A stretch of DNA of 64,000 nt, taken from Rhodocytophaga rosea. Its GTDB lineage: Bacteria; Bacteroidota; Bacteroidia; Cytophagales; 172606-1. The stretch's first letter is position 1; each line of letters opens with the position of its first letter. The notes beneath the pieces are model-generated. The model had not been told where the DNA came from. It saw nothing but the letters and a program-made list of their open reading frames with translations, and searched no databases. Shown here in pieces: positions 11,985 to 31,818 of the stretch. Position numbers and translations under genes: made by a program. The DNA lies in contig NZ_CP048222.1 of the NCBI RefSeq assembly GCF_010119975.1, positions 310,001-374,000 on the forward strand. The letters run 5' to 3'.

Positions 11985-13064
11985 ATGAAATATTATTGCA
12001 AACAAAGGCTGTTGATAATAATTGTAGCCCTTATCTCAATCAGCGGATGTATCAAAGACGAGGGTCCAGATACTGGTCCCGACACTACTTTTGATAAAAC
12101 CGCCATGCTGACTACCTATGCCGATGCGCTGATTATTCCGGCATATGTAGGCATGCAGCAAAAACTCCAGGCGCTGGAAACACCTTTAACCACGTTTTTA
12201 ACAGATCCTTCACCAGCCAATCAACAAGCACTAAAACCAGCCTTTAAAGAAGCTTACCTGCAATTTCAACGAATTTCTGTATACCAGCTAGGTCCGGCAG
12301 AAGAGGCTTTATTGAGCAATTTTCTGAATATGTTTCCGGCAGATATTAGTGTCATTGAGAACAACAGCAGCACAGGTAATTATAATCTCCTGGTAAACTC
12401 TTCTGTAGATGAGCAGGGTTTTCCGGCCTTAGATTATTTATTGTTTGCTGAAGATGCACTCCAGAAGTTTAATGGGTCTACGGCAACTACCCGCAAAAAG
12501 TATGTTCAGGATATTTTTTCCAGAATGAAAACACTGGTAAATACTGTACATGCCGATTGGCAAAGCAACTACCGCAGCGAGTTTATTGATAATACCCGAA
12601 CGGATGTGGGAAGCCCGATCGGCTATCTGGTCAACCAGTTTGCCTATGAAATGGACCAGCTGAAAGGTCCACGGATCGGATGGCCATTTGGTAAACAATC
12701 GGGGGGAGTAGTTTTTGCAGATAAAAGCGAAGGTTACTATTCCGGACTCTCTCTTGCTCTGGCAATTGAAAACCTAAGCAGCCTTAAAAATGCCTTTACA
12801 GCCGGAAGCAGCGGAAGTGGTATTTCTGCTTACCTGGTTGCTTTAAATAAACAAGAATTAAATACAGAGGTGTTAAGCCAGTTTGATGTGGCTATCAACA
12901 AACTCAAAGCCATTCCTGATCCCCTGTCTATTGCCTTTACCCAGCACAAAGATCAGGTGGATACTGCATACAAGGAGATACAAACCCTGCTCACCTTGAT
13001 AAAAACAGATGTGGCTTCGGCTACCGGGGTGCGCATAACTTACCAGGATAGTGACGGTGACTAA
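11985..13064 (+). CDS. Imelysin-family lipoprotein (M75-like)
   Basis: A 359-residue lipoprotein with lipobox ISGC (Cys at 22). The imelysin fold signatures are present: an early helical bundle, and GFPALDYLLFAED near residue 145, which stands in place of the classic GxHxxE motif, as in many Bacteroidota members. A second conserved patch is GPRIGWPFGKQSGG. Imelysins are iron-regulated surface proteins once thought to be peptidases; current evidence favours metal or heme uptake roles. It is the second gene of the operon, followed by the HTTM gene with a 14-base overlap. Confidence 0.88.
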   Translation: MKYYCKQRLLIIIVALISISGCIKDEGPDTGPDTTFDKTAMLTTYADALIIPAYVGMQQKLQALETPLTTFLTDPSPANQQALKPAFKEAYLQFQRISVYQLGPAEEALLSNFLNMFPADISVIENNSSTGNYNLLVNSSVDEQGFPALDYLLFAEDALQKFNGSTATTRKKYVQDIFSRMKTLVNTVHADWQSNYRSEFIDNTRTDVGSPIGYLVNQFAYEMDQLKGPRIGWPFGKQSGGVVFADKSEGYYSGLSLALAIENLSSLKNAFTAGSSGSGISAYLVALNKQELNTEVLSQFDVAINKLKAIPDPLSIAFTQHKDQVDTAYKEIQTLLTLIKTDVASATGVRITYQDSDGD

Positions 13065-14442
13065 AACCAATACAGGCTGGTTTGGGAAGCAGGTTTTAAA
13101 AAGTCTGCAACAGCCTGTTCATATTTCTCCGCTTATTACCTTCCGGATACTTTTCGGCCTGATGATGTGTGTGGGCATTATCCGTTTCTGGCTCAATGAC
13201 TGGATCACAGAATTATATGTAAAACCTGCTTTCTACTTTTCCTATCCTGGTTTTCAATGGGTGCATCCTTTAGGAAATTCGGGTATGCATATCATATTTG
13301 CCGGAATGGCTATATGCACCCTTTTGATCAGTATTGGATTATGGTACAGAGTGGCGAGTATCCTGTTTTTTCTGTCTTTTACGTATGTAGAACTGATCGA
13401 CAGCACCAACTACCTGAATCATTACTATTTTATCAGCCTGATCAGTTTTCTGCTGATATTTTTACCGGCTAACCGCTATTTCTCCCTGGATATAGTCATA
13501 AACCCGGCTCGTAAACTGACTGTGATCCCCCTCTGGATGGTAGGTATAATCCGCTTGCAGGTAGGTCTGATCTATTTTTTTGCCGGGATAGCTAAACTTA
13601 ATCCAGACTGGCTGCTGGAAGCGTTGCCTATGAAAATCTGGCTCCCGGCTAAAAGTCACATTCCACTGATTGGCTCACTGCTATATAAAACCTGGGTCGC
13701 ATACTTGTTCAGCTGGTTTGGGGCAGTATATGATCTGTTCATCGCCTTTTTTTTGCTTCACCGTAAAACCAGGCCGGTGGCGTATTTTTTTGTACTCGCC
13801 TTTCACCTGGCTACTGCCCTGTTTTTTCCAGGCATTGGATTATTTCCCTATGTAATGATGATTTGCAGCCTGGTATTTTTCAGTTCAGCCTTTCATCAAA
13901 AGTTATTACAGTTTTTTTCCTTTTCCCGGAAAACACAAGAACAAGCTCCCTCTTCCAGTACTTATCTTAATAATATCAGGAGAAATCAAGTTTTACTAAC
14001 AGGTATAGGTGTTTATTTTCTATTTCAGATACTCATTCCTTTCCGGCATGTACTCTATCCCGGACATTTATTCTGGCATGAAGAGGGTTTCCGTTTCTCC
14101 TGGCGGGTGATGCTGATGGAAAAATCGGGAAATGCATTTTTTTACATAAAAGAACCCTCTACTGGCCGGACATATGAAGTAAATAATGCCGAATTTTTAA
14201 CACCTTTGCAGGAAAAAATGATGAGCACCCAGCCAGACATGATCCTGCGCTATGCACACCATCTGGCAGAAGTATATACAGGCAAAGGTATCCGGCAGCC
14301 GCAGGTATATACGGAATGTTATGTGGCCCTGAATGGAAAGCGGTCCAGATTGTTTATTGATACAACAGTGAATCTGGCTAAGCAGCCTTTGAGTCTGAAG
14401 CATTATACCTGGGTACTGCCTTATTCCCTGAAAGCTAAGTAG
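13051..14442 (+). CDS. HTTM-domain membrane protein (gamma-carboxylase-like)
   Basis: A 463-residue membrane protein with an N-terminal HTTM domain (about residues 20-290), which contains four to eight membrane helices and the motifs RILFGLMM, VELIDSTNYLNHYY and GLIYFFAGIAKLNPDWL; the last two are shared with vitamin K-dependent gamma-carboxylase. The C-terminal third is soluble and periplasmic. The chosen start is GTG at 13051; a second GTG at 13057 is possible. It overlaps the imelysin gene by 14 bases, and its stop TAG directly abuts the ATG of the TonB receptor, so the last three genes are translationally coupled. Bacterial HTTM proteins lack a known reaction; association with uptake operons is repeated in Bacteroidota. 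Confidence 0.82.
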   Translation: MTVTKTNTGWFGKQVLKSLQQPVHISPLITFRILFGLMMCVGIIRFWLNDWITELYVKPAFYFSYPGFQWVHPLGNSGMHIIFAGMAICTLLISIGLWYRVASILFFLSFTYVELIDSTNYLNHYYFISLISFLLIFLPANRYFSLDIVINPARKLTVIPLWMVGIIRLQVGLIYFFAGIAKLNPDWLLEALPMKIWLPAKSHIPLIGSLLYKTWVAYLFSWFGAVYDLFIAFFLLHRKTRPVAYFFVLAFHLATALFFPGIGLFPYVMMICSLVFFSSAFHQKLLQFFSFSRKTQEQAPSSSTYLNNIRRNQVLLTGIGVYFLFQILIPFRHVLYPGHLFWHEEGFRFSWRVMLMEKSGNAFFYIKEPSTGRTYEVNNAEFLTPLQEKMMSTQPDMILRYAHHLAEVYTGKGIRQPQVYTECYVALNGKRSRLFIDTTVNLAKQPLSLKHYTWVLPYSLKAK

Positions 14443-16828
14443 ATGAAATACATACAGATCGTTCTTTTTTTACTTATCTCTGGTTTTGCCAGTGCACAAG
14501 GCTTTACCATAACTGGTACTATTCAACTAGAGAAAACTCCTGTTGAAGGGGCTACTATTAGTTTACTGCCTTTAGATATAAAAACAGCAAGTACTTCTGG
14601 AGGCGCATTTCAATTCACAAAGATTCAATCCGGCACTTATCAATTAGTTGTAACGTATGTGGGTGCCAGGCAGCATACCCAGGAAGTGATTATCACCAGT
14701 AAAGATATTTCTCTTACCATCAATCTGTTGCTGGATAATACTTTGTTAAAAGAAGTAGTGGTAAAAGATGCCAGTGAGCAGGTATCCGGCAATTTGCGCC
14801 AGATAGAAGGAATTGCCATTTATGCCGGCAAAAAAACGGAAGTAATTAACCTGGTTAATATCAACGCCAATCTGGCTACCAATAATGCCAGGCAGGTTTA
14901 CAGCCGTATTCCCGGCTTAAACATCTGGGAATATGATGGTGGTGGTTTGCAGTTAGGCATTGGCGGACGGGGGCTTAATCCCAGCCGGGTTTCTAATTTT
15001 AATACCCGCCAGAATGGCTACGATATCAGTGCTGATGCCCTGGGGTATCCGGAAAGTTATTATACACCACCCAATGAAGCGGTTGAAAAGATTGAGATCA
15101 TCCGGGGGCTGCTAGCTTGCAGTATGGCACCCAGTTTGGCGGACTCATTAATTTTCAACTCAAAAAAGGTCCGGAAGACAAACCCATCCAGGTGGTAAGT
15201 CGCCAGACTGGGGTTCTTTTGGTTTTTTCAATTCATTTAACAGCGTTGGAGGGACCGTCAAAAAGTTAAATTATTATACCTATTATCAGTTCAAACGAGG
15301 CGATAGCTGGCGGCCCAACAGCCATTTTAACCAGCATGCAGCTTATGCCCACCTGGAATATAACTTTAATGAAAAACTCTCCCTTACCGGCGAATATACG
15401 TTTATGCATTACCTGGCCAAACAACCAGGAGGCTTAACAGATGCTGACTTTCAGCGTGACCCTTCGCAATCGGTAAGAGAAAGAAACTGGTTTAAAGTAG
15501 ACTGGAACCTGATTAGTCTTTCGTTGGATTACCGCTTCAGCGACCAGACCAGGCTCAACTGGCGCACCTATACATTACAGGCTGGCCGGGAAGCCTTGGG
15601 TATTCTCAATTACATTAACCGCCCCGACCCAGGTGGCGCCAGGGACCTGCTGGCTGACCGGTATAATAACTTTGGTTCAGAAGTCCGGCTGTTACACCAG
15701 TATACCTTATTCAAAGACCTGAAAAGCACTTTACTTACTGGGGCACGTTTATATAAAGGACTTACTCTGCGCAAACAAGGCGAAGCAGATGCTGGAAATG
15801 GTCCTCAGTTTGATTTTGTACCGTCAGAACCCAGTCACTCCGATTACCGATTTCCCGGAACCAATGTGGCCGGTTTTGTAGAAAACATTTTTCAGCTAAA
15901 CGATAAGTGGAACGTAACCCCAGGAGTACGGATGGAATACATTTCTACCAATGCAGAGGGATATTTCTACCAGATTATGCGGTTCGTGCCGAATGTAAAA
16001 GTTCAGGAAGAACGGGAGAAAAACCGTTCGTTTCTGCTGGCAGGCATAGGAAGTTCCTATCAATTATTTAAAGGCGTAGAATTGTATGCCAATATTTCGC
16101 AGAATTACCGCTCGATCAACTTCAACGATTTGCGGGTACAGAATGAAAATGCCAGGGTGGATTCGCTGCTCAAAGATGAAAACGGATACACCGCCGATGG
16201 AGGAATCCGGGGAAAACTCAATGACTGGCTGTATTACGACATGAGCCTTTTTTATCTCAAATACAATGATCGCATTGGTTCTGTATTTACCAAAAATGAA
16301 GATAACATGGTATACCGTTTACGCACCAATGTAGCCGATAGCCGCAATATTGGTTTTGAAGGTATTATAGAGGCAGATTTTCTCAAAGTGTTTACCCAAG
16401 GAAAAAGCCGGTATAAATTATCTGTGTATACCAATTTTGCTGCCATTGATGCCCGGTATATCAACACCCAGGAAACAGCTATCCGCAACAAAAGAGTAGA
16501 ATTTGTGCCTCCCCTATTATTCCGGAGCGGAGTATCTTTCGGAGATAAACGCTTTAATATAACCTACCAGTATTCTTATATAGCCAAACAATATTCGGAT
16601 GCGACGAATGCTGAATTCACCCCTACGGCTGTTGATGGAGCCGTACCAGCTTATCAGGTGATGGATGTAAGTGTAAGTTACCAGTGGAAATGGCTGGGTA
16701 TTTTTGGAAGTATAAATAACCTGGCGAATACCAGCTATTTTACCCGCCGAGCAGATGGCTATCCTGGTCCTGGGATTCTCCCCTCCGACCCCAGAGGCTA
16801 CTACCTGACCTTACAGGCTAAATTTTAA
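14443..16828 (+). pseudogene. TonB-dependent receptor, frame broken twice
   Basis: An outer-membrane receptor of FecA type. Frame 1 (14443-15198) holds a signal peptide, a carboxypeptidase-like domain (about residues 20-105) and most of the plug with GIGGRGLNPSR and EKIEIIRG. At the G-run 15104-15108 the reading must move to another frame, where AASLQYGTQFGG continues the plug; at 15210-15213 a second shift leads into the frame 15212-16828, which carries the barrel and ends in a typical aromatic C-terminal residue (LQAKF). One extra G at each run restores a single protein of about 795 residues. The barrel frame has no other stop, so decay is recent or the breaks are sequence errors. Fourth gene of the imelysin operon; ligand probably a metal complex. 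Confidence 0.85.
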
Positions 16829-17175: not shown

Positions 17176-19041
17176 CTACTTAGTTTCCTTATCCCTGGCT
17201 ACATGCTCCTCTTCCCAGCCAGTGAGTTTTCTATCCAGTTCAAAAGCAGCACTGATTAAACCCAGGTGGGTAAATGCCTGCGGAAAATTGCCCAGATGTT
17301 CGCCCCGTAAACCCAGTTGTTCGGAAAACAGGCCCAGGTGATTGGCATAGCCCAGCATTTTTTCAAAATACAACCTGGCTTTTTCGATCTGCCCGGATCT
17401 GGCCAGGCATTCCACAAACCAGAACGAGCACATCGTAAAAGTGCCTTCTTCTCCATCCAGGCCATCTGTGGCTCCTTTGTCGGTACGGTAGCGGTATACC
17501 AGTGAATCGGATACCAGTTCTCTTTCTATGGCTTCGAGGGTGGAGAGCCATTTGGGTTCATAGGGGCTGATAAAACGCATTAATGGCATGAGCAAGGCAG
17601 CAGCATCCAGCACCGTAGAATCTTTGGATTGTACAAAGGCTTTTTTCTCCTCATTCCAGAAGTTGACAAAAATATCCTTATAGATCTCGTCCCGCACTTT
17701 TCGCCATTCATATACAGGAGAAGGAAAAGACCGGCTATCGGCAATACGGATGGCCCTGTCTAGAGCCACCCAGCACATGAGCCTTGATTGTAAGAATTCC
17801 CGCTTTTCATCCCTCACCTCCCAGATGCCATGATCAGGCAGTTGCCAGTTGCGGCACACATACTCAATCTGCGGCTCCATCTTTTGCCAGAATTCATAAG
17901 TAATAGGCCCGCCATATTTATTGAATAAGTAGATAGAGTCGATCAGTTCCCCATAAATATCCAGCTGCAATTGTTCAAAAGCGGCATTTCCGATGCGTAC
18001 AGGCGATGATTTTCTATATCCTTCCAGATGAGATAATTCCTCCTCCTCAATAGAAAGATGGCCATCCAGGCCATACATCAACTGCAGGTACTGATCCCGA
18101 TTAGTAATGGTGCCTAGCTCTTTTTCTATCCATTTCATAAAAGCATATGCTTCCTCCATCAGGCCAAGGCGTAAAAAGGCAAACATGGTAAAGGCTGCAT
18201 CCCTGATCCAGGTGTAGCGATAATCCCAGTTGCGTTCTCCGCCAATTACAGATGGCAGGCTAAAAGTAGGAGCTGCCACCGCCGAGCCAAACTGGTAAGA
18301 GGTAAGGAGTTTGAGCGTAAGCGCTGAACGGTTTACCATTTCCAGCCACCGGCCACTATATTTGGATTTGCCTATCCAGCGTTTCCAGTAGTTGACGGTA
18401 TCATTAAAGCTAGTTTCAGTATAATAACGAATACTTGCCTCTATTGTCCGGTGTTCTTCAGAGCTAAGGGCTTGCATCACAAAATGTGCTTTTTGCTTTT
18501 CACATAAGGTAAATTCTGCGATTACATCATCGCCCACGATCTGCAAAGGTACACTGCTAATAAGACGGATAGCAGTCTGCTCGGCATCCTGGCTTGTAAA
18601 AATCACTTCATGTTCAGTACCTGATACACTATGTTTGGCTCTGGCATAATCAAACCTGGGCTCACAGTGCATCCGGAAGCGCATATTCCCTCTGGTTGCG
18701 GTGATGCTTCTGACCAGGACACAATTTTTTTCTTTTGCTTTAACCGGCATAAAATCGGTTAATTCCGCTACCCCTTTATCCGATAAGAACCTGGTCAGCA
18801 GCACATTGGTATCCGGCAAGTAGAGTTGTTTGTAGTCCAGTTCATTCAATTCTGGCTGAATAGAGAAAAAGCCTCCTTTGGCATGGTCCAGGATAGAAGC
18901 AAATACCGTAGGAGAATCAAACCGGGTGAAACACATAAAATCGATGGAACCTTGCAACGACACCAGGGCTACGGTATGCAGATTTCCGATAATGCCATAA
19001 TTGGCAATAGGTTGATAGGGTTGATTTGATTTTTCCTTCAT
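17176..19041 (-). CDS. Glycoside hydrolase family 15 (glucoamylase/trehalase-like)
   Basis: A protein of 621 residues from ATG 19041; a GTG 99 bases upstream would add 33 residues without family resemblance, so the later start is preferred. The N-terminal beta-sandwich begins with PIANYGIIGNLHTVALV and GSIDFMCFTRFDSPTVFASILD, the hallmark of bacterial GH15 glucoamylase-like proteins. The (alpha/alpha)6 barrel holds GGERNWDYRYTWIRDAAFT, with the conserved W-x-R-D. Catalytic glutamates are expected in EEEGTF-like and EQ segments near the C-terminus (DGEEGTF, LFSEQL). Substrates of the group include alpha-glucans and trehalose. There is no signal peptide, so it should act in the cytoplasm, probably on storage sugar. 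Divergent from the Kai operon. Confidence 0.87.
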   Translation of the reverse strand: MKEKSNQPYQPIANYGIIGNLHTVALVSLQGSIDFMCFTRFDSPTVFASILDHAKGGFFSIQPELNELDYKQLYLPDTNVLLTRFLSDKGVAELTDFMPVKAKEKNCVLVRSITATRGNMRFRMHCEPRFDYARAKHSVSGTEHEVIFTSQDAEQTAIRLISSVPLQIVGDDVIAEFTLCEKQKAHFVMQALSSEEHRTIEASIRYYTETSFNDTVNYWKRWIGKSKYSGRWLEMVNRSALTLKLLTSYQFGSAVAAPTFSLPSVIGGERNWDYRYTWIRDAAFTMFAFLRLGLMEEAYAFMKWIEKELGTITNRDQYLQLMYGLDGHLSIEEEELSHLEGYRKSSPVRIGNAAFEQLQLDIYGELIDSIYLFNKYGGPITYEFWQKMEPQIEYVCRNWQLPDHGIWEVRDEKREFLQSRLMCWVALDRAIRIADSRSFPSPVYEWRKVRDEIYKDIFVNFWNEEKKAFVQSKDSTVLDAAALLMPLMRFISPYEPKWLSTLEAIERELVSDSLVYRYRTDKGATDGLDGEEGTFTMCSFWFVECLARSGQIEKARLYFEKMLGYANHLGLFSEQLGLRGEHLGNFPQAFTHLGLISAAFELDRKLTGWEEEHVARDKETK

Positions 19042-19289
19042 AAGAGAACAAAAGAGATGCAAAGCGCTATATATGTCTACTTCCAGACATCGAGCTAATA
19101 ATGCGTATACTTCATTTTGAGATAGTAAGTTTTTAAACACCTAAGAAAGTTAGAATCGTTGAAAAATACGTACCTGATCCAGGATAAAGCTTTATTTTAG
19201 TCATCTAAATCTATTGAAAAGCTACCCCTCTTTTACGCCAATTCATTCTCATACTTAAACATTTATCCTTTTCTATCGTAGGCTTTAGC

Positions 19290-21023
19290 ATGAAAACAGA
19301 TAAAGATAAGTCTACCCTTAGCTTACCTCAACTTACACTTGCTAAAACGCAGACAGGTATTGATGGCCTGGATGAAATCACGCAAGGAGGTTTGCCCAAA
19401 GGCCGTCCTACCCTGATTTGTGGAAGTGCCGGCTGTGGCAAAACATTAATGGCCATGGAATTTCTTGTAAATGGTGCCACCCTCTATAATGAGCCTGGTG
19501 TATTTATGGCATTTGAGGAAACGTCTGAGGAATTAGCTACAAATGTGGCTTCTCTTGGTTTTGATTTGAAAAAGCTAAGTGAAGAGAAAAAATTAAAAGT
19601 AGATTATGTATATGTAGAACGAAGCGAAATTGAGGAAACCGGTGAATATGACCTGGAAGGCCTTTTTATACGCCTGGGTTATGCCATTGATTCGATAGGA
19701 GCCAAACGGGTGGTGCTCGATACCATTGAATCACTTTTTTCCGGCTTATCTAATCCCTCTATTTTACGGGCAGAAATCCGGAGACTGTTCCGCTTTCTGA
19801 AAGAGAAAGGACTAACTGCCATTATCACCGGAGAAAGAGGCGATGCTACTCTCACCCGCCAGGGGCTGGAAGAATTTGTGTCTGATTGTGTAATACTGCT
19901 CGATCACCGCATTATCAATCAAATATCTACCAGAAGGCTACGGATCGTGAAGTACAGAGGCACTACTCATGGAACCAATGAATATCCTTTTTTGATAGAT
20001 GAAGATGGGATTTCGGTGTTGCCAGTTACGTCCCTGGGACTGGCACATGAGGTATCCGATGAAATTATTTCTTCCGGTGTAAAAGGACTGGATGAAATGC
20101 TGGGCAAGGGAGGATTTTATAAAGGAAGCACTGTATTGATTACAGGCACCGCTGGAACCGCCAAAACTACTTTTGCTTCCTCATTTGCCTATGATACCTG
20201 TAAACGGAAGGAACGTTGTTTATTTTTCGCCTTTGAAGAATCTGAGCAGCAGTTATTACGGAACATGAAGCAGGTAGGCCTGGACCTGGAACCGTTTATA
20301 AAAAAAGGATTGCTACAAATCTACTCCTCCCGACCTACCCTGTATGGACTGGAAATGCACCTGGTTACTATTCATAAATTGATTAATAGCTTTAAACCAG
20401 ATGTAGTCGTAATTGATCCGATGAGCAATCTGGTATCTGTAGGTGGGCTCACCGAAGTACAGGGCATGCTTACCAGGCTTATTGATTTTTTGAAAGTGAA
20501 TAAAATTACTGCCCTGCTCACCGCTTTAACTATTCCTACCGGTAACAGTTTAGAACTCACGGAAGAAGGTATATCCTCCCTGGTAGATTCCTGGGTACTG
20601 GTACGGGATGTGGAAGGAATCGGCGAGCGTAACCGGGGAATATTTGTGATCAAATCCCGAGGCATGCAGCATTCTAACCAGGTACGGGAGTTTGTTATTA
20701 CAGACCAGGGTATCAGATTACTGGATGTAAACATTGGTCCTACTGGTATATTGACTGGTTCGGCCAGGCTGGCTTATCAAATGCAGCAAACTACGAGTGC
20801 AGCGGCCAAGCAGAATGAGATCGATAAAAAAGACAGGGAGCTTGCCCGTAAGCGAAAAATCCTGGAAGCCTCCATCGAAAATATGCGCACAGAATTTGAA
20901 TCTATTGAGGAAGACCTCAGGCAGATTCACGCTCAGGAACTTTTCCAGCAAAATTTACCTGCAACTGATTCCATTCTAACAAAATCTGGTAACGGTTCAG
21001 GTAAAAAGAAAACAAAAAGATAA
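19290..21023 (+). CDS. kaiC: KaiC-like double RecA ATPase
   Basis: A 577-residue protein with two KaiC domains. CI has P-loop GSAGCGKT (45-52) and the paired glutamates of FMAFEET; CII has GTAGTAKT (286-293) and FFAFEES. The CII phosphorylation segment LTEEGISS aligns with ITDSHIST of Synechococcus KaiC, giving T424, S429 and S430 opposite T426, S431 and T432; the last site is Ser instead of Thr. A charged coiled-coil-like tail of about 70 residues follows residue 500. Cyanobacterial KaiC is the autokinase of the circadian oscillator; homologues without KaiA work in stress adaptation or hourglass timers. First gene of an operon with two KaiB genes and a histidine kinase. Confidence 0.92.
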   Translation: MKTDKDKSTLSLPQLTLAKTQTGIDGLDEITQGGLPKGRPTLICGSAGCGKTLMAMEFLVNGATLYNEPGVFMAFEETSEELATNVASLGFDLKKLSEEKKLKVDYVYVERSEIEETGEYDLEGLFIRLGYAIDSIGAKRVVLDTIESLFSGLSNPSILRAEIRRLFRFLKEKGLTAIITGERGDATLTRQGLEEFVSDCVILLDHRIINQISTRRLRIVKYRGTTHGTNEYPFLIDEDGISVLPVTSLGLAHEVSDEIISSGVKGLDEMLGKGGFYKGSTVLITGTAGTAKTTFASSFAYDTCKRKERCLFFAFEESEQQLLRNMKQVGLDLEPFIKKGLLQIYSSRPTLYGLEMHLVTIHKLINSFKPDVVVIDPMSNLVSVGGLTEVQGMLTRLIDFLKVNKITALLTALTIPTGNSLELTEEGISSLVDSWVLVRDVEGIGERNRGIFVIKSRGMQHSNQVREFVITDQGIRLLDVNIGPTGILTGSARLAYQMQQTTSAAAKQNEIDKKDRELARKRKILEASIENMRTEFESIEEDLRQIHAQELFQQNLPATDSILTKSGNGSGKKKTKR

Positions 21024-21031
21024 CCTAACAA

Positions 21032-21349
21032 ATGCACATGATACACAACATGGAACCGAAAGAAGAAACCTGGGAATTACGACTCTATGTAGCCGGACAA
21101 ACCCCTAAATCTGTTACGGCTATTTCTAATTTAAAAAAATATTGTGAAGAACACCTTAAAGGCAGATATCAACTGGAAGTAATAGACCTGCTGAAACATC
21201 CGCAGCTGGCCGAAGGCGATCAGATTCTCGCCATTCCGACACTGGTGCGGAAAGTACCTGAGCCGATCAGAAAAATAATCGGCGACTTATCAAATCAGGA
21301 ACGGGTACTGGTAGGATTAGATATAAAGCCGCTCGAACCTAAAATATGA
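21032..21349 (+). CDS. kaiB: KaiB-fold protein, first copy
   Basis: A 105-residue thioredoxin-like KaiB protein. Hallmarks are [45 protein letters not shown] and [16 protein letters not shown], which follow the cyanobacterial protein almost position by position. KaiB switches fold to bind the CI ring of KaiC. The start is at 21032, but Met codons at 21038 and 21050 are possible because the first 14 residues are not conserved. It begins 8 bases after the kaiC stop, so the two are clearly co-transcribed. Confidence 0.92.
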
Positions 21350-21353
21350 AATA

Positions 21354-21680
21354 ATGGATCAACACGAACCAGAAGGATTTGAAGAGTCATTAGGTAATTC
21401 AGCACAAGATATATATATTCTCCGTTTATACATCACCGGCATGACGCCCAATTCCAAACGGGCTGTAGAAAATGTAAAACAGATTTGTGAACAGTATCTG
21501 CCAGGAAGGTATGAACTGGAAGTGATTGATATTTACCAGCAGCCGACACTTGCCCAGCAAGAACAGATTATTGCGGCTCCCACACTTATTAAAAAACTTC
21601 CGGGTCCGTTACGTAGATTAATTGGAGATATGTCTAACACAGAAAAAGTGCTGATTGGCCTTGATTTAAAATCTAAATAG
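21354..21680 (+). CDS. kaiB: KaiB-fold protein, second copy
   Basis: A 108-residue paralogue of the preceding gene, with LRLYITGMTPNSKRAVENV, YELEVIDIYQQPTLA, IIAAPTLIKKLPGP and IGDMSNTEKVLIGLD. It has a longer acidic N-terminus (EPEGFEESLG). It starts four bases after the stop of the first copy. The two differ at many surface positions, which fits separate partners, one perhaps KaiC and one the histidine kinase downstream; that division is inference. Confidence 0.92.
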   Translation: MDQHEPEGFEESLGNSAQDIYILRLYITGMTPNSKRAVENVKQICEQYLPGRYELEVIDIYQQPTLAQQEQIIAAPTLIKKLPGPLRRLIGDMSNTEKVLIGLDLKSK

Positions 21681-21705
21681 ATCTTTGCATCCTGAAAGAT
21701 GAGAT

Positions 21706-23457
21706 ATGTCAGAAAAAGAGTTTGGTCCTAGAGATAATGATAAGCGGCTGCTACAGGAGAATATGGAACTCCGGAGAAAGTTGCAGGAATCTGAGGAAAT
21801 TCTTGAAGCCATCCGGATGGGTACCGTTGATGCACTCACGATCCAGGGTCCGGATGGCCCCCAGATTTATACTATTAAAGGAGCCGATCATACCTACCGG
21901 ATTCTCATAGAAGAAATGAATGAGGGCGCACTTACCCTCAACCAGGCTGGTGTGATCCTGTACAGCAATTCGCATTTTGCTACCCTCATCAATTTACCTT
22001 TAGAAAAGGTAATTGGCGGTTCGTTCTATACTTTTCTACAGCCGGAAGACCATACCCGGTTTCAATACCTGTTTTCACAAGGGTGGAATAAAAACAGCAA
22101 AGGAGATTTTTTTTTCCGGACGGATCATGGGGATTTACTGCCGTTTTTACTTTCTATAAATGCACTTCCCGGCAGCGATCCACCCGCTCTGGGAATGATT
22201 GTTACAGACTTATCGGCCGAAAAAGAGATTCTGGCTGTAAAAACACAGGTAGAACTCCAAACCCAGATTATTTCCAGAAAAGAGGAGGAATTGCTGAATG
22301 AAAAGCAGACCAAAGAAGAAGCACAGCGTTTCCGGATTGTATTAGAAGGTATTCCTCAGATCGCCTGGACCTCCACACCGGATGGGCTGATTAATTATGC
22401 CAATCTGTTCTGGCACCAGTATACCGGACTTTCTGAACAGGAAACCAAAGGCAATGCCTGGTTGCAGGCCTTGTATCCCCCGGATGTAGAAGGAACGCTG
22501 GCATATTTTAATGCGTGTTTACAAACAGGCGAGCAAATTAATTTTGAAAGCCGTTTCAAAAGAGCCTCCGATGGAATGTACAGGTGGCACGTCATAAAAG
22601 CATCGCCGGTACGAAATTTGGCTGGCGAGATCATTCTATGGGTCGGAACCTGTACTGATATTCATGACCAGAAAGAGTATACAGAAAAACTAGCCCTGGC
22701 TAAACAAAACTTAGTTGAATTAAATGATCAGTTAACGGAGAAGAATGAACAACTTATCCGTACGAATAACGACCTGGACACCTTCATCTATACCGCCTCG
22801 CATGATCTGAAAGCGCCGGTAGTAAATATTGAAGGTCTGATCAAAAACCTGGAAAGAAAACTGGAACGGGAAAAAGTATTAAAAGAAAACGATCAGCTGC
22901 TCATCGAAATGATTTATCATTCTATCCTCCGGTTTAAGGCTACCATTCAGGACCTAGCTGAGATAGTGAAGATTCAGAAAACCTTTAAGGAAGACGCGGC
23001 GATAGTAAGTATTGAAGAGATTATAGCAGATGTGAAAGAAAGTATCGGCGAAATGCTGATACAAACGAATGCAAAAATTATTCTGGATGTAGCCCGGGTG
23101 CCACAGTTACATATTTCCCGCAACAACCTAAAAAGTATTATGTATAACCTGATCAGCAATGCCGTGAAATACCGTTCTAAAGAGCGGGTGCCGGAGATCA
23201 TCATATGCACAGAAAAAGTAGATCAGTTCGTATGTATGACCATACAGGATAACGGTCTGGGAATGGAACTACCGGATAAAGATAAGATATTTTTAATGTT
23301 TAAAAGACTCCATGATCATGTGGAAGGAACTGGTGTAGGCCTCTATATTGTAAAGAAAATTATTGATAATATGGGAGGCAAGATTGAAGTAGAAAGTCAG
23401 GTAGGGAAAGGCTCTATCTTTAAAATCTATTTTAATACTGCTCAGAATCTTGACTAG
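21706..23457 (+). CDS. PAS-domain hybrid-less sensor histidine kinase of the Kai operon
   Basis: A 583-residue cytoplasmic histidine kinase with no membrane segment. The order is an N-terminal coiled coil (residues 10-35), PAS 1 (about 60-175), coiled coil, PAS 2 with PAC (about 205-325, containing W-x-x-x-T-P-D-G), coiled coil, dimerisation domain with phospho-acceptor H366 in TASHDLKAP, and a HATPase domain with N-box NLISNAVKY, G1 DNGLGM and G2 GTGVGLYIVKKII. No receiver domain or response regulator gene lies near, so the output partner is elsewhere. Position 25 bases after kaiB suggests it reads or feeds the KaiC state, as SasA does in cyanobacteria, although it has no KaiB-like sensor domain. 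Confidence 0.9.
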   Translation: MSEKEFGPRDNDKRLLQENMELRRKLQESEEILEAIRMGTVDALTIQGPDGPQIYTIKGADHTYRILIEEMNEGALTLNQAGVILYSNSHFATLINLPLEKVIGGSFYTFLQPEDHTRFQYLFSQGWNKNSKGDFFFRTDHGDLLPFLLSINALPGSDPPALGMIVTDLSAEKEILAVKTQVELQTQIISRKEEELLNEKQTKEEAQRFRIVLEGIPQIAWTSTPDGLINYANLFWHQYTGLSEQETKGNAWLQALYPPDVEGTLAYFNACLQTGEQINFESRFKRASDGMYRWHVIKASPVRNLAGEIILWVGTCTDIHDQKEYTEKLALAKQNLVELNDQLTEKNEQLIRTNNDLDTFIYTASHDLKAPVVNIEGLIKNLERKLEREKVLKENDQLLIEMIYHSILRFKATIQDLAEIVKIQKTFKEDAAIVSIEEIIADVKESIGEMLIQTNAKIILDVARVPQLHISRNNLKSIMYNLISNAVKYRSKERVPEIIICTEKVDQFVCMTIQDNGLGMELPDKDKIFLMFKRLHDHVEGTGVGLYIVKKIIDNMGGKIEVESQVGKGSIFKIYFNTAQNLD

Positions 23458-23481
23458 CGTATATCTCACCTGTCCAATATT

Positions 23482-24417
23482 ATGAAACAACTATTTACTT
23501 ATCCGCTCCAGGGCATTCTCAGCGCTGTATTTATCAGTCTGATTGGTATTGGTTTATGGTCGTATGTAGGAAACAAAGAACTACTATTTACCCGCCAAGC
23601 AACCGGGAATACAGGAATTGCCCATCAGCAGAAGCCTGCCCGGCTGATCATCCGCGGTGATGATATGGGGTATACACATTCCGGAAATCTGGCAATTATG
23701 AAAGCGTATAAAGAAGGAATTGAGAAATCAATTGAAGTAATTGTTCCTTCTCCCTGGTTCCCGGAAGCGGTAAAAATGCTCGGACAGATTCCTGATGCCG
23801 ATGTTGGTATCCACCTTGCCCTTACCAGCGAGTGGGATCATGTAAAGTGGCGGCCTCTTACAGATTGTCCGAGCCTGCGCGATGAAGATGGCTATTTCTA
23901 CCCTATGATCCAGAAAAATAAAAATTACCCAGGCCGGGCACTTACCGAAAATCAATGGAAAATCGAAGACGTGGAGAAAGAATTCCGGGCGCAAATCGAG
24001 CTGGCGCTAAAGAAAATCCCGCGTATCAGTCATGTTTCAGCACACATGGGCTGTTCCAATATTAGTCCGCAGGTGAAAGAACTAACCCGTAAACTTGCCC
24101 GGGAATACAAAATTGATATCGATCCGGCTTCGCTTGGCGTAACATCTATCAGTTATGCAGGACCGCAGCTCACCCGTGCGGAAAAGGAAAGCAGTTTTAT
24201 TAATATGCTGGGCCAGCTGAAAGCCGGAGAAACGTATTTATTCGTAGAGCATCCTGGATTTGACGATGCTGAATTGCGTGCTGTCCATCATATAGGTTAC
24301 GAAAATGTTGCCGATGACCGCCAGGGAGTTACTGATATGTGGACGAGTGAAAAGGTAAAAGCAGAGATCAAAAAAAGAAACATACAAATTATCAGTTACA
24401 AAGACCTGCTGAAATAG
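23482..24417 (+). CDS. ChbG/YdjC-family carbohydrate deacetylase
   Basis: A 311-residue protein with a single N-terminal membrane span (residues 10-28) followed by a ChbG/HpnK/YdjC domain. The metal site motif RGDDMGYTHSGN (near residues 58-69), DVGIHLALTSEW with its His, and SHVSAHMG with a further His are all present. The family removes acetyl groups from chitooligosaccharides or related sugars using a divalent metal. The anchor places the catalytic part in the periplasm. It starts 24 bases after the kinase stop and is probably in the same operon, though functional linkage to Kai proteins is not evident. Confidence 0.82.
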   Translation: MKQLFTYPLQGILSAVFISLIGIGLWSYVGNKELLFTRQATGNTGIAHQQKPARLIIRGDDMGYTHSGNLAIMKAYKEGIEKSIEVIVPSPWFPEAVKMLGQIPDADVGIHLALTSEWDHVKWRPLTDCPSLRDEDGYFYPMIQKNKNYPGRALTENQWKIEDVEKEFRAQIELALKKIPRISHVSAHMGCSNISPQVKELTRKLAREYKIDIDPASLGVTSISYAGPQLTRAEKESSFINMLGQLKAGETYLFVEHPGFDDAELRAVHHIGYENVADDRQGVTDMWTSEKVKAEIKKRNIQIISYKDLLK

Positions 24418-27379: not shown

Positions 27380-27669
27380 AGGAGTGGTTGTTATAGGATT
27401 GAAAGAATCAGATATAAATATTCTTACAAAAAATCAGCCTTGCACTTTGCAGGATTGTTACATCCAATTCCATATATGTTCCCGGACTTTAGCTGTTTAG
27501 GCTACATATCTTTCTTATTCCTCGTTAAGTTAACTAAAATGAACATAAACTTACGATGCCAAGCCCTCTTGCATCAGCCTTGTGTGCTTGGTGGACTGGG
27601 AAGCGTATAAATCCGATGTTGCACTAAACCTACGGTAGCCTGTTGGTAGGTGGGAATAGTTATAGGAGT

Positions 27670-28608
27670 ATGTTTCACCAAACTCTTACCACTATGTCAA
27701 CACCAAACACTAACACCCACCCTACTTTTATCCAACAGGCTTGCCTGAAGGTAAGCGGATTTTCTCTCCTTTACAACAAGCTGGAAAGGGATATCTCCCT
27801 GTCTGGCAGAAGTCTGAGCACGTTAAAAAACTACTCCCGCCACATGGCTCAGATTGCTCTCTACTACAATCAGTTGCCTACCGAACTAGACGAAGATCAG
27901 GTCAGAGATTACCTGTGGATGCTGCAGAAGAAAACGAACAAGCCTTCTAAAAGCTCTTTCAAACATGCTGTCTATGGCCTGCGCCTGCTCTACCGGCTTA
28001 CCGGCAGAGATGACCGGGCTATCCGCCTACCTTCCATCCCTAAAGTACACAAACTGCCAGCGGTCCTCAGTAAGCAGGAAGTCAAAGCTCTGCTCAAAGC
28101 ACCCCGTCTGTTAAAGCACCGGGTGCTGCTGGCCTTAATCTATTCAGCAGGCCTTCGCATGCAGGAAGTATGCCGGCTTGAGATCTCAGATTTAGATTTT
28201 GACCGCATGCAGATCCACATTCGCCAAAGCAAAGGAAGAAAAGACCGCTATGTACCCCTCTCCCAGCTGATGAAAAGAGGACTGCTCTCCTACCTGTCTG
28301 CCTGCAAACCCCACTACTACCTCTTCAATGGCAAGGAATATGGCTCGCAGCTCAGCCGCAAAGGCGTGCAATGGCTCATGCAGGATGCAGTTAGTAAAGC
28401 GGGCATCAAAAAGAAAGGCATCTGTGTACATACCCTGCGCCATTCCTATGCCACCCATCTGCTAGAAGATGGATTGGATATTGTCTCCATCAAAGAACTT
28501 TTAGGCCATAGCTTCCTGGAAACTACCCTTGTATATCTGCACATGGCAGGACTTGGCAGAAAAGCTCCTTTCTCTCCTCTAGATACCCTCTATACAAAGG
28601 AGGCATGA
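27670..28608 (+). CDS. Tyrosine recombinase of an IS91-type element
   Basis: A tyrosine-type site-specific recombinase of about 313 residues; ATG 27670 and ATG 27694 are both plausible, while an upstream TTG at 27643 is less so. The SAM-like N-terminal core-binding domain (LSGRSLSTLKNYSRHM) is followed by a catalytic domain with Arg in SAGLRMQEVCRLE, HTLRHSYATHLLE (HxxR), LLGHSFLETT and the nucleophile Tyr in LVYLHM. All catalytic residues appear intact. Its stop overlaps the IS91 transposase start by four bases (ATGA), which shows that it belongs to the transposable element and is not a phage or integron integrase. Confidence 0.88.
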   Translation: MFHQTLTTMSTPNTNTHPTFIQQACLKVSGFSLLYNKLERDISLSGRSLSTLKNYSRHMAQIALYYNQLPTELDEDQVRDYLWMLQKKTNKPSKSSFKHAVYGLRLLYRLTGRDDRAIRLPSIPKVHKLPAVLSKQEVKALLKAPRLLKHRVLLALIYSAGLRMQEVCRLEISDLDFDRMQIHIRQSKGRKDRYVPLSQLMKRGLLSYLSACKPHYYLFNGKEYGSQLSRKGVQWLMQDAVSKAGIKKKGICVHTLRHSYATHLLEDGLDIVSIKELLGHSFLETTLVYLHMAGLGRKAPFSPLDTLYTKEA

Positions 28609-29777
28609 AGCCTGCCCTAGAGTTAGCCCATATACTGTCGGCTCACTTACATGAGTTTATGGCCACGCATGCAGTCTCTGCTCACAAGTTCTCCACCCTA
28701 AAGGCGATTGAGCATTGCCGTACTGCCAGACTAGGCGGCCATATAGATGCCTGTGATAGTTGTGGCTACCTGCGTATTAGCTACAACAGCTGCCGCAACA
28801 GACACTGCCCTAAGTGTCAGACTACCAATCGTGAAAAGTGGATTATGCAAAGGGAGGCAGACCTGTTACCGGTCAGCTACTTTCATGTGGTCTTCACCTT
28901 GCCCCACTCCCTTAATCTATTGTGCCTGCAGTATCCCCAAGAACTCTATGCTTTGCTCTTCAAGACAGCCTGGTCTACGATCAACAGCTTTGCCAATAAT
29001 CCCAAGCATCTGGGTGCTAAAACAGGTATGATCTCCATTCTGCACACCTGGGGACAGAACCTCTCACTGCATCCACATCTGCATTGTATTGTGCCGGGTG
29101 GAGGGATCTCTGGGAGTGGCCACTGGAAAAAGGCCAGAAGTACAGGTAAATATCTTTTCCCGGTCAAAGCACTCAGTAAAGTGTTCCGTGCTCGCTATGT
29201 CTCACTACTGAGAAGCTTTCTTTCTGCTAATAAAGCACAGGTGGATAATGGGCTATGGAAAGAGTTATTTGCCAAAGACTGGGTGGTATACTGTAAAAGG
29301 CCTTTCTTAGGTCCTGCTCAGGTGATTGAATATCTGGGACGTTACACCCACAAAGTAGCTATCTCCAATCACCGCCTCCAAAGTATAGAGGATGGCAAGG
29401 TGAGCTTCGCTTACAAAGATTACCGGCAAGAAGCAGCAAAGAAAACCATGAGTTTGGAGGCTACTGAGTTCATCAGGCGTTTCAGCCTGCACATTCTGCC
29501 ACCAAAGTTTGTCCGCATCCGCCACTATGGCATTTTGTCTTCCAAAGCAAAAGCCCATGATTTAGCACTGGCCAGACAAGATTTGAGAGTAGCTACGCCG
29601 GAAAAAAGAGTGTCGGACTGGAAAAGCATCTGCAAAGAACGCTTAGGCTATGATATAGACCTGTGTCCTTGCTGCAGCAAAGGCCGCATGAGAGAAATCT
29701 TGCGCTTTGAAGCAGCCCGTTCCCCACCTGATAGGGCTTACCTGCTATCGATAGCTTTACACTTGAAAACTGCCTGA
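28605..29777 (+). CDS. IS91-family HUH transposase
   Basis: A 390-residue rolling-circle transposase. The N-terminal zinc-binding region has CDSCG...CRNRHCPKCQ. The HUH motif is HLH in LHPHLHCIVPGGG (metal site for strand nicking), and the catalytic tyrosine region is EYLGRYTHKVAISNHRL. The C-terminal zinc knuckle CPCCSKGRM is present too. The protein should nick the ori end of the element and transfer a single strand to a new site. Length and motif order are those of full IS91 transposases, so the gene is probably functional. Confidence 0.93.
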   Translation: MKPALELAHILSAHLHEFMATHAVSAHKFSTLKAIEHCRTARLGGHIDACDSCGYLRISYNSCRNRHCPKCQTTNREKWIMQREADLLPVSYFHVVFTLPHSLNLLCLQYPQELYALLFKTAWSTINSFANNPKHLGAKTGMISILHTWGQNLSLHPHLHCIVPGGGISGSGHWKKARSTGKYLFPVKALSKVFRARYVSLLRSFLSANKAQVDNGLWKELFAKDWVVYCKRPFLGPAQVIEYLGRYTHKVAISNHRLQSIEDGKVSFAYKDYRQEAAKKTMSLEATEFIRRFSLHILPPKFVRIRHYGILSSKAKAHDLALARQDLRVATPEKRVSDWKSICKERLGYDIDLCPCCSKGRMREILRFEAARSPPDRAYLLSIALHLKTA

Positions 29778-30004
29778 GTAGAATAAAAAAGCCACTCAAA
29801 AAATTGGCCGGGAAAGTTATTGCCCATGTTGGAATATAGTCACCTTACTTGGAGCCAACACGGCTGCTCAGTTTACAAATAGTGAGATCTTTTCTCTTCC
29901 TTTTTTTACACTATCTTCTTTTAGTGTACTACCGCTTCACCCAGAAGCTTCTTCTCTATTGATTGATTCCCCATAAATAAGGGCAGGTTAAACCACCCGG
30001 TTTC

Positions 30005-30062
30005 GTGCAACACAGGGTTCATGGTGGGTTAAGACCACCCCATGAACCCTTATATGTTATGT
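30005..30062 (-). repeat. attC-like palindrome 1 / hairpin
   Basis: A 58-base imperfect palindrome with arms agggttcatgg (30014-30024) and ccatgaaccct (30040-30050). On the plus strand it is flanked by GTGCAAC (30005-30011) and GTTATGT (30056-30062), near the RYYYAAC and GTTRRRY boxes of integron attC sites. The stop codon of the lipoprotein gene lies inside the second box. An alternative is a plain terminator for that gene. Confidence 0.4.
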
Positions 30063-30899
30063 CTCGTTTTTCTTCTTTTCTGATAGAAGGTATTCTCTGG
30101 GTTCAAAATCTTTTTTCCTCAATAATTCTTGAGGTATCATTAACTGACCTTTATTTACTTGCCCTTGTATTGAGTTAGAGTAATAAATCTTTCCTTCGCT
30201 AAAGAATTTGATCCGTATCTCGGTATTGAAATCACCTCGAAAAACGGGTGTTTTACTCATCAACCCACAGTTAGCTAATATTGCTATGGACTGAATACCG
30301 CTATCACAGAAAGGAATCTCCTTATTACCTCTCCAGTATTCTAGTTCTCTCCATACCCCTTGCTCGTCTTTCGCCTGTTGGACCATAAAAAGTCTGGCCC
30401 CTTCACATTCTAAAGTGAGTAGTGAATCTGTCATGTTTTTGACCAATACCGGATAAGCCTGAAATAAAATTGAATCTTCACCTATCATTTGATGGTTCTT
30501 TGTTACTATATGAGTTTGGGAAATAATAACTTTCAACTTTCCACTTATATCTTCCTTTTGGGTCCTGAGCCTATCGGTAGTTTCCATAGGTGGTGGTGGC
30601 GGCGGACTTTCAGGAAGAGCTAGCTTTTTTTCAACATATTCATTAATGAAGTATAATAAAAACAATGAATCTATGTGTTTACATAGCTCCTCTGATTGAA
30701 GAACATGAATAGAATCTTTTTCTATATCAAAGTAAGCTTCTATGGTTGAGCTTGAATTTGTCATCGAATCAATATCAAGCCTTAAATTCACTTTCCTCAA
30801 ATTATCAACAATATAAGGCTTCTCTTCTTGGCTATGTTGTTGCTTACAACCATAGAAAAGAATTATAATAGCCAATATAATTTGTAATTTGATAATCAT
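30057..30899 (-). CDS. Hypothetical lipoprotein
   Basis: A predicted lipoprotein of 280 residues from ATG 30899 (an upstream TTG is less likely). The hydrophobic leader ends in LFYGC with Cys at about residue 18. A run of proline residues (SPPPPPP) lies near residue 100, after which the protein is rich in beta-strand-type sequence. No family was recognised. Base composition looks more AT-rich than in the metabolic genes around it. It sits between two attC-like palindromes, begins 11 bases after the box of the one, and ends inside the other, which is the layout of an integron gene cassette. Confidence 0.6.
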   Translation of the reverse strand: MIIKLQIILAIIILFYGCKQQHSQEEKPYIVDNLRKVNLRLDIDSMTNSSSTIEAYFDIEKDSIHVLQSEELCKHIDSLFLLYFINEYVEKKLALPESPPPPPPMETTDRLRTQKEDISGKLKVIISQTHIVTKNHQMIGEDSILFQAYPVLVKNMTDSLLTLECEGARLFMVQQAKDEQGVWRELEYWRGNKEIPFCDSGIQSIAILANCGLMSKTPVFRGDFNTEIRIKFFSEGKIYYSNSIQGQVNKGQLMIPQELLRKKDFEPREYLLSEKKKNET

Positions 30900-30909
30900 T
30901 TTAAATGAG

Positions 30910-30999
30910 ACATAACGTAGCAAGTACAGCCATCAACCATAGCCATTTAGCATTTGCTTTACACATGGCGGTTTGGTTGTCGGCTGTACAGTGTTACAT
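30910..30999 (-). repeat. attC-like palindrome 2
   Basis: A 90-base imperfect palindrome: gtacagcc..caacca...gccat (30924-30946) pairs with atggc...tggttg..ggctgtac (30965-30989), with two mismatches and a short bulge, and a loop of about 18 bases. It is bounded by ACATAAC (30910-30916) and GTTACAT (30993-30999). There is no T-run, so it does not look like a normal terminator. Confidence 0.45.
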
Positions 31000-31035
31000 G
31001 CTATTTTTTACAATAATTTCCACTATGTATTGAGT

Positions 31036-31653
31036 TTACTTAAAAATATCTCCAATTCTCTTTTCTGTATAGTCCTGTAAAGAAAATCCATATCTTTTTC
31101 TAAGTCTATTTAATTCAATATACGCACCTGAATTTTCGTAATTACTAATTTGATTTTTAATTGACAGTACATATTCTAATAAATAATTATAATAATCAAC
31201 TTCTGCTTTTTTAAAGTCTATACTCTTCAGGTTATGATCAGTAATTAAATATATTCCTGACTTCATCACTAAAGAATCGATTCTGTATGGTTTGCTTATC
31301 CCAAGATCGGTTTTTAAAATTAGTGTCATTGTATCATTCCTATGAATAAATTTCCTTAACAAGTCATTATAAACGACAACACCCGAACCATCATAAAATT
31401 TAGTTTTGTCATTATATGTATGCTCTTTGGGGATATTAGAATTTGTGCAAGATGTTTGGTCATCTCTGTTTAACTCTCCCAGCATCTTAAAATTTTTACA
31501 AAAGTTCTCGTATTCAACAATGTGACCATTGTTATCAAATAATCTGAATTGAAAACCAACTACATAAGAAGGCTGTCCATTTGAAACTGATGATAAGAAA
31601 TTTGAAATAATTAAAATTAACGCAAATCGTAATAAATTTTGTTTCACTCTCAT
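31036..31653 (-). CDS. Hypothetical secreted protein
   Basis: A 205-residue protein with a probable signal peptide (hydrophobic residues 8-24, then SVSNGQ). The mature part begins PSYVVGFQFRLFDNNGHIVEYENFC and ends in a polar helical region (ELNRLRKRYGFSLQDYTEKR). It has a few cysteines and no recognised domain. AT-rich, unlike the flanking metabolic genes. It lies on the same strand as the two other orphan genes of the cluster, with palindromes on both sides. Confidence 0.55.
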   Translation of the reverse strand: MRVKQNLLRFALILIISNFLSSVSNGQPSYVVGFQFRLFDNNGHIVEYENFCKNFKMLGELNRDDQTSCTNSNIPKEHTYNDKTKFYDGSGVVVYNDLLRKFIHRNDTMTLILKTDLGISKPYRIDSLVMKSGIYLITDHNLKSIDFKKAEVDYYNYLLEYVLSIKNQISNYENSGAYIELNRLRKRYGFSLQDYTEKRIGDIFK

Positions 31654-31717
31654 TTGTCTACCATTGAAAAAGTATTTATGTGATTCTATAATATTGCAGA
31701 CAATGAATCAAATATTT

Positions 31718-31767: not shown

Positions 31768-31818
31768 TTTAAATATGGTGTTATACCTTGTTATTTATTC
31801 ATCATCTACTTATAACCT

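Follow-up and report, generated by a model that had tools for sequence, protein, structure and literature searches.

A coil-type KaiBC cassette in Rhodocytophaga rosea with two KaiB paralogues and a Kai-associated N-terminal module on its PAS histidine kinase

Results

A compact kaiC-kaiB-kaiB-kinase cassette

The window analyzed here is a stretch of 64,000 nucleotides from Rhodocytophaga rosea (contig NZ_CP048222.1, positions 310,001 to 374,000), and all coordinates below are those of the window. At 19290-23457 it carries a tightly packed cassette in the order kaiC-kaiB-kaiB-histidine kinase, all on the + strand and separated, according to their coordinates, by 8, 4, and 25 nt. An initial annotation had proposed such a compact set of one KaiC, two KaiBs, and a PAS histidine kinase, and the Pfam domains and the gaps bear it out. 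That annotation was nevertheless incomplete, as it overlooked a long KaiC tail, a deep split between the two KaiBs, and a Kai-dedicated module at the start of the kinase. The features are as follows.

19290..21023, +, kaiC, double-domain, coil-type (KaiC2-like / R. sphaeroides-like), 577 aa
20145..20168, +, P-loop of the second KaiC domain (CII), GTAGTAKT, residues 286-293, with Ala for Gly before Lys (consensus GxxxxGK[ST])
20556..20579, +, phospho-site segment LTEEGISS, residues 423-430, with T424, S429, and S430
20763..20969, +, KaiC C-terminal extension, about residues 492-560, aligned to the coiled-coil tail of Rhodobacter sphaeroides KaiC (8dba)
21032..21349, +, kaiB1, first-position paralogue, slow-evolving, 105 aa
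21354..21680, +, kaiB2, last-position paralogue, faster-evolving, 108 aa
21706..23457, +, Kai-associated PAS histidine kinase, 583 aa, H-box His at residue 366
21745..21930, +, Kai-dedicated N-terminal module of the kinase, residues 14-75: long helix, beta-hairpin, helix into the PAS fold
21922..22215, +, first PAS domain of the kinase, which adjoins the module in relatives too
22327..22662, +, second PAS domain (Pfam)
22777..23436, +, HisKA and HATPase_c domains (Pfam), the effector part, exchanged in relatives

The host genome, a single contig of 8.98 Mb, holds one KaiC and two KaiBs, the latter being the two of the cassette, while two further PF06745 places are weak (31-32 bits against a cut-off of 26.6). 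None of the four genes is KaiA, and no KaiA search of the genome was made. Among the matches listed, the closest named relatives of the cassette are in Hymenobacter, Flavobacterium, Mucilaginibacter, and Pedobacter, and the hosts of this cassette type include, by name, Methanoperedens and many Bacteroidota. Comparisons across relatives use 87 loci, namely 80 named loci (numbered with an L below) and seven from relatives of the window, its own genome included; since the 80 are the best of at least 366 confirmed, they lean to Bacteroidota. Residue-level comparison within the closest set uses an alignment (A1) of seven rows, the window and six relatives.

Conservation of the fourth gene lies in its N-terminal module

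By Pfam, the kinase consists of PAS, PAS, HisKA (25.1 bits, just below the cut-off of 26.9), and HATPase_c. What is conserved across the loci is not this kinase but its N-terminal module: a start homologous to residues 1-185 lies directly after the last KaiB in 87/87 loci by BLAST, and the same search with the first 185 residues found no second copy within these loci. When the best Pfam stretch per family is taken, some 50-60 residues at the start of the module-bearing end have no match, and the PAS match begins within the last part of the 62-residue module. An AlphaFold2 (AF2) model of residues 1-182, built from 66 rows, has a mean predicted local distance difference test (pLDDT) score of 88. 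It opens with a helix of 30 residues and a beta-hairpin, after which a second helix runs into a PAS fold that is followed by an exit helix; pLDDT is 65-79 across residues 31-70, the hairpin region. In the PDB, Foldseek matches this 182-residue model to PAS, LOV, and haem-PAS proteins; matches with a root-mean-square deviation (rmsd) of 2-4 Å cover about 110-135 columns, and longer ones have an rmsd of about 9-11 Å. As the low-rmsd matches cover only part of the model, we take them as matches to the PAS fold. Light sensing by the first PAS domain was considered and set aside on this reading of the matches, and no LOV cysteine motif was seen by eye.

Behind the module, the attached enzyme is exchanged. 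Ten proteins were scanned, nine from the 87 loci and that of R. sphaeroides: the effector is HisKA in four (L036, L078, L098, and L108, three of them with a receiver domain), HisKA_2/HWE in L085 and R. sphaeroides, HisKA_3 in L102, GGDEF-EAL in L106, and HD in L099, while L095 (235 aa) has nothing but PAS. A short form of the fourth protein, 232-241 aa, occurs in six loci (L095, L096, L100, L101, L107, and L109), and in L100 a hybrid kinase follows it immediately. From the GGDEF-EAL and HD versions, one would expect some Kai timers to work through cyclic di-GMP (c-di-GMP).

This exchange bears on the alternative that the fourth protein is an input device, in which its PAS domains would sense redox, oxygen, or a metabolite, with the module relaying this to KaiC/KaiB and resetting the timer. 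PAS domains are generally sensors, and, in the available parts of the sources, a kinase within or close to the kaiBC operon has been proposed as a redox or oxygen input in R. sphaeroides (PMC5520375) and by analogy in R. rubrum (PMC10931921); the PAS domains and these earlier suggestions are what favor an input direction. However, the piece behind the module varies among output-type enzymes (several kinase classes, GGDEF-EAL, and HD), which would be odd for a pure input, and an outward flow of information is favored because the exchange is between output enzymes. A receiver-only protein, sought by BLAST with three such proteins at E 1e-8, also lies within 1 kb of the kinase in 32/80 named loci, a further point against the input device, which we judge unlikely. 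In one of these loci (L045) the receiver-only protein starts one nucleotide after the stop codon of the kinase, and in a same-genus relative of the window a receiver protein lies 46 nt behind it. As a separate observation, a conjugative plasmid of Rhizobium (L230) has an EAL-domain gene at 6274-7162, two genes downstream of its kai kinase.

The module occurs almost only beside clock genes

Whole-genome searches used an alignment of the module (A2) with 62 columns and 17 rows and covered 395 genomes of Bacteroidota, 398 of Pseudomonadota, 171 of Chloroflexota, 169 of Planctomycetota, and four reached through loci, 1137 in total. At most 15-16 candidates were scored per genome in the Bacteroidota and Pseudomonadota samples, where extra copies could be missed, and up to 37 in the Chloroflexota and Planctomycetota samples; all candidates were scored in the four genomes reached through loci and in the window's own genome, which holds one module copy. 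The module was found in 60 of the 1137 genomes, in 59 of which it adjoins KaiB (a KaiB fragment only in one of the 59). In Bacteroidota it is present in 28/395 genomes, one copy each and all 28 KaiB-positive, with the module match 33-293 nt behind the KaiB match on the same strand. The 8/171 Chloroflexota and 8/169 Planctomycetota genomes with the module all have KaiB upstream within ~0.65 kb (16/16), and all four genomes reached through loci have the module. Of the 12/398 in Pseudomonadota, ten adjoin kaiC and kaiB, one (L159) has next to the module only an 84-aa open reading frame (ORF) with KaiC and KaiB pieces, and one (L160) is a weak module match (14 bits, E 9e-4) without an adjoining KaiB. 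At two loci (L193 and L197), no KaiC was seen in the 1.5-kb flank of the module.

Plasmids give the same picture. Among 72,556 plasmid records, 13 carry the module, and in 13/13 kaiC lies just upstream on the same strand, by coordinates and, for three, by annotation. A consensus query found two of these records, missing that of R. sphaeroides, and the R. sphaeroides module as query found 12, with one shared (Rhizobium sp. BG4). The 13 are exactly the plasmids of the 13 plasmid KaiCs that are at least 53% identical to the window KaiC, and the other three plasmid KaiCs (35-37% identity) had no module match with either of two module queries. Control pieces of 75 residues from the same kinase match 26 plasmids (phosphoacceptor region) and 103 plasmids (second PAS). 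Phage records held no match to kinase residues 1-182.

Among the loci examined, the module goes with one type of set rather than with kai genes in general. All 80 named loci have kaiC first, a long KaiC tail, and the module, whereas 15 kaiB-first sets of Pseudomonadota with a short KaiC tail have no module in the 6-6.5 kb fetched (0/15); these were taken from 18 listed, leaving out L168-L170 and also L174, L179, and L180. The kinase of an Aquisphaera kinase-kaiB-kaiC set is likewise without it, and KaiB-positive genomes without the module number 11/39 in Bacteroidota (four with only a weak or fragmentary KaiB) and 27/37 in Pseudomonadota. In the genomes searched, the module is nearly restricted to Kai loci, and a domain that these searches place in the coil-type Kai operons of several phyla, with an exchanged enzyme behind it, offers a specific experimental handle. 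Our literature search, for which the sources were available in part, found no published account of the module, which is no proof of absence.

KaiC is of the coil type with ordinary phospho-sites

The window KaiC is, as the initial annotation held, a full double-domain protein: PF06745 matches in two stretches (382.7 bits), giving two RecA-like KaiC domains. It passes NF006799 of NCBIfam (734 against a cut-off of 408) and falls below the cut-off of TIGR02655, circ_KaiC (362 against 546). In a phmmer comparison with solved structures, the dodecameric R. sphaeroides KaiC 8dba scores highest (637 bits, query 17-568); other full-length KaiC structures score at most 376 bits, many cyanobacterial ones about 333-341, and their matches stop near query residue 477-499. 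Past model position 485, the KaiC tail has 63-91 residues in 80/80 named loci, as against 12-22 in 15/15 kaiB-first KaiCs of Pseudomonadota. By its long C-terminal tail, the window protein is a Rhodobacter-type, coil-type KaiC, and the cassette belongs to an established class, coil-type KaiBC. In one locus (L012), from a 75% complete genome, the KaiC relative is split over several frames by decay or sequencing error.

The paired glutamates annotated in both domains are present (E76/E77 in the first domain, CI, and E316/E317 in CII) and invariant in 7/7 rows of A1, and the segment LTEEGISS with T424, S429, and S430 lies at residues 423-430. The initial annotation had further singled out the Ser at the third phospho-site as a useful variant. 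This did not hold up when residues were compared over the 87 loci: the Ser-Ser dyad (S429/S430 in the window) is found in 85/87, R. sphaeroides KaiC has it, and two serines are stated for cyanobacterial KaiC2 in the available part of PMC5520375, so Ser at this site is ordinary. The T424 position is Ala in 23/87 KaiCs, mostly of Flavobacterium (e.g., LAEESVSS; L036, L045, and L052), and the Flavobacterium KaiCs with this Ala also have Ala in the CII P-loop.

Both P-loops had been annotated as intact. That of CI is canonical (GSAGCGKT), but CII reads GTAGTAKT, with Ala for the consensus Gly, and is the only one of the two in which GxxxxGK[ST] is unmet, a pattern that is a general ATPase feature and not a distinguishing mark of the coil-type KaiC family. 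Ala stands there in 52/87 KaiCs, and Gly in the other 35. All 52 fall on one side of a single tree branch (Shimodaira-Hasegawa-like approximate likelihood ratio test, 99), a side that holds Hymenobacter, Flavobacterium except L083, several metagenome-assembled genomes (MAGs) of Bacteroidetes, and the window's genus and family. Could the cassette then be half-dead, the Ala having abolished CII chemistry and left CI and KaiB binding alone? The size of the Ala group on its one branch side, and the absence of a T424 equivalent in most Flavobacterium there, would fit such a loss. However, KaiCs of the Ala set retain the Ser-Ser dyad, and the six Ala rows of A1 retain the CII glutamates. MCM and MoxR ATPases, which are active, have Ala at the same place of the P-loop. 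We therefore regard a half-dead cassette as highly improbable and, as the phospho-dyad stays conserved, think that CII may well still be active.

Two KaiB paralogues separated by a deep split

KaiB1 and KaiB2 are each a single KaiB domain (PF07689, 101.9 and 96.7 bits, cut-off 27), and NF006798, with a cut-off of 110, is barely passed by KaiB1 (113.9) and barely missed by KaiB2 (106.9). Exactly two KaiBs follow kaiC in 84/87 loci, and in all 84 the order is KaiB1-like then KaiB2-like. The other three have three (L076, from an archaeon whose KaiC groups with that of Methanoperedens), four in a row (L092, a Planctomycetota MAG), and one (L097). In a tree of 181 KaiBs over 83 columns, whose bootstrap was not fully settled, first- and last-position copies are split by one branch (99/87; 200/200 bootstrap trees), with the single KaiB of L097 branching just outside the last-position group. 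Because both sides of this split hold Bacteroidota, Chloroflexota, Planctomycetota, Pseudomonadota, and Methanoperedens, the duplication that gave KaiB1 and KaiB2 seems to predate the cassette's spread among these groups.

The two copies have since evolved at different rates. Mean pairwise identity is 0.77 for KaiB1 against 0.55 for KaiB2, with KaiB1 higher in 3445/3486 pairs. In S. elongatus numbering, the fold-switch glycine G88 is kept in 86/86 KaiB1 but 34/87 KaiB2, and D90 in 49/86 and 23/87; both KaiBs of the window keep G88 and D90 and have Gln at the K57 position. Among 19 listed cassettes with a single detected KaiB, the KaiB1 model scores higher in 15, one of these 15, L145, being the copy of L097, whose branch lies near KaiB2. 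Such a deep split makes "two KaiBs" a testable division of labor.

One form of this division would be a split SasA, in which KaiB2 is the KaiC-docking piece for the kinase and replaces the fused KaiB-like domain of SasA. The last-position KaiB adjoins the fourth gene in two-KaiB loci, and KaiB2 matches SasA N-domains better than KaiB1 does (6x61: E 2.5e-4 vs 0.16). An AF2 model of KaiB2 has the thioredoxin-like beta-alpha-beta-alpha-beta-beta-alpha topology of the KaiC-binding, fold-switched state, to which we give little weight because it has no KaiB1 control and AF2 may favor that state generally. On the other side, the SasA model NF006800 gives both window KaiBs the same 29.0 bits, and the module also occurs in R. 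sphaeroides and in the cassettes with a single detected KaiB, for most of which the KaiB1 model gives the higher score. Given these cases of one detected KaiB, KaiB2 as an obligatory kinase adapter is kept as a weak rival only, and a quite improbable one.

Other KaiB arrangements were seen. Two loci (L141 and L142, in genomes G184 and G286) have one KaiB1-like KaiB and then a gap of ~290 nt, the size of a KaiB gene, before the module; this gap perhaps holds a KaiB2 so divergent that it escaped detection. In kaiB-first Pseudomonadota (L215-L217, L219, L222, L227, and L229), a second, divergent KaiB (63-82 bits) comes after kaiC, so that KaiBs flank kaiC, and in L174, L179, and L180 two KaiBs lie ~0.9 kb apart ahead of kaiC.

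Genomic setting

The GH15-like gene on one side of the cassette (17176-19140) and the YdjC gene on the other (23482-24417) were tried as operon partners and rejected: no homologue of either over more than 100 residues was found at E 1e-10 in the 80 named loci, with flanks of up to 6 kb, nor any at E 1e-8 in two closer relatives. A scan of 19000-23700 for promoters and terminators gave no excess over shuffles (7 vs 10.5 and 5 vs 4.3). Further upstream, a TonB-dependent receptor is split over two + strand ORFs (14443-15198, with the carboxypeptidase-like and plug part, and 15404-16828, with the beta-barrel), which looks like an interrupted gene and is preceded by a vitamin K-dependent carboxylase-like ORF (13051-14442). 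Downstream, at 27643-29777 (+), a phage-type integrase ORF overlaps an IS91-like Y2 transposase ORF, perhaps a mobile element; G+C nearby is low (0.32 at 30001-32000), and in this low-G+C stretch lies a 288-aa ORF with a TTG start and no Pfam match (30057-30923, -).

Discussion

The genes and their residues, the KaiC tail, the split of the KaiB paralogues, the confinement of the module, and the exchange of effectors were observed here directly. We consider that they most likely, and with somewhat better than even confidence, belong to an ATP/ADP-driven, hourglass-type switch of coil-type KaiBC that is read out through the Kai-dedicated module. The biochemistry of this switch is carried over by analogy from work on R. 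sphaeroides and S. elongatus. In the available part of PMC10076222, the C-terminal extension of R. sphaeroides KaiC joins two hexamers via a 12-helix bundle, and the protein phosphorylates itself at S413/S414 free of KaiA; KaiB stimulates both its ATPase and its dephosphorylation, and it is reset by the ATP:ADP ratio, for which reason the authors use the term hourglass timer. The window KaiC aligns over 17-568 to this protein, and the R. sphaeroides kinase has the module (51 bits), both of which support the proposal.

By this analogy, KaiC would form double-ring hexamers, probably paired via their C-terminal coils, and would autophosphorylate at S430/S429 without KaiA, losing these phosphates as ADP rises, aided by KaiB1 bound to CI. 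Its phospho-state would in this way report energy charge and recent history, as an hourglass rather than a self-sustained clock. We infer that the helix-hairpin module heading the fourth protein would act as the receiver that reads the state of the KaiC-KaiB assembly, that the signal would run outward, and that the module together with its PAS domain would switch the attached enzyme, here a histidine kinase and elsewhere a c-di-GMP-type enzyme. KaiB2 would be a second, less constrained KaiB, which may tune the system or compete for CI sites.

Several points weigh against this proposal. A constant neighborhood with an exchanged effector indicates dedication, not direction, and the module could instead pass a signal on to KaiC. 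Given the non-canonical P-loop of CII, kinase chemistry may differ from that of R. sphaeroides. As to output, homologues of three kai-linked receiver proteins were not found in the window, and the two nearest genomic homologues of the same-genus receiver protein (67 and 63% identity) lie just downstream of 989- and 1063-aa ORFs on the same strand.

Might the cassette be a stress or energy switch that keeps no time, as proposed for the Kai homologues of Legionella and Pseudomonas? The initial annotation had stated that KaiA-less KaiBC sets are described as hourglass timers or stress modules, which agrees with the available parts of the literature (PMC10076222, PMC4794148, PMC5520375, PMC11372060), with stress-response roles of Kai homologues stated in two of these sources (PMC11372060, PMC5520375). 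The hosts, with Methanoperedens and many Bacteroidota among those named, would also suit such a switch. However, sequence cannot separate it from an hourglass, and the closest studied KaiC is an hourglass in vitro; we hold a switch without time-keeping to be possible but somewhat unlikely.

Taking the observations further, we tentatively suggest, at slightly less than even confidence, that the helix-hairpin-PAS module is an undescribed Kai-dedicated domain, an ancient port through which the coil-type KaiBC timers of bacteria and archaea send or receive signals. Fitted with exchangeable enzymes, it would work with the coiled-coil tail of KaiC and take the role that the KaiB-like domain has in SasA, and the two KaiBs would represent an old division of labor. 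As far as the literature search showed, and within the available parts of its sources, a Kai-dedicated module with exchangeable effectors, an ancient KaiB pair, and a group of KaiCs with an Ala P-loop are new to us.

Comparison with known systems

The closest studied system is KaiC/KaiB of R. sphaeroides (8DBA, 8FWI, 8FWJ; PMC10076222). It shares with the window the double-domain KaiC, the Ser-Ser sites, the long C-terminal coil, the order kaiC-kaiB-kinase with no kaiA in that stretch, and the module on the kinase. It differs in having one KaiB, a CII P-loop of GVAGAGKS where the window has GTAGTAKT, and an HWE kinase where the window has HisKA. Rhodopseudomonas palustris has a kaiC-kaiB-PAS kinase set (PMC4794148, available part) with the same gene order and no kaiA, for which one promoter is predicted for the three genes; this set, too, differs in its one KaiB. 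One group of Bacteroidetes was reported in 2017 to encode only KaiB2/KaiC2-like proteins (PMC5520375, Schmelling et al.), a description that the window cassette fits, and the available part of that source holds no mention of the two-KaiB layout or of the fourth-gene module. SasA, the output kinase of Cyanobacteria, is likewise a histidine kinase tied to a Kai system. According to the available part of PMC6769508, SasA has a KaiB-homologous domain, whereas the window kinase has no PF07689 match and is headed instead by the helix-hairpin-PAS module.

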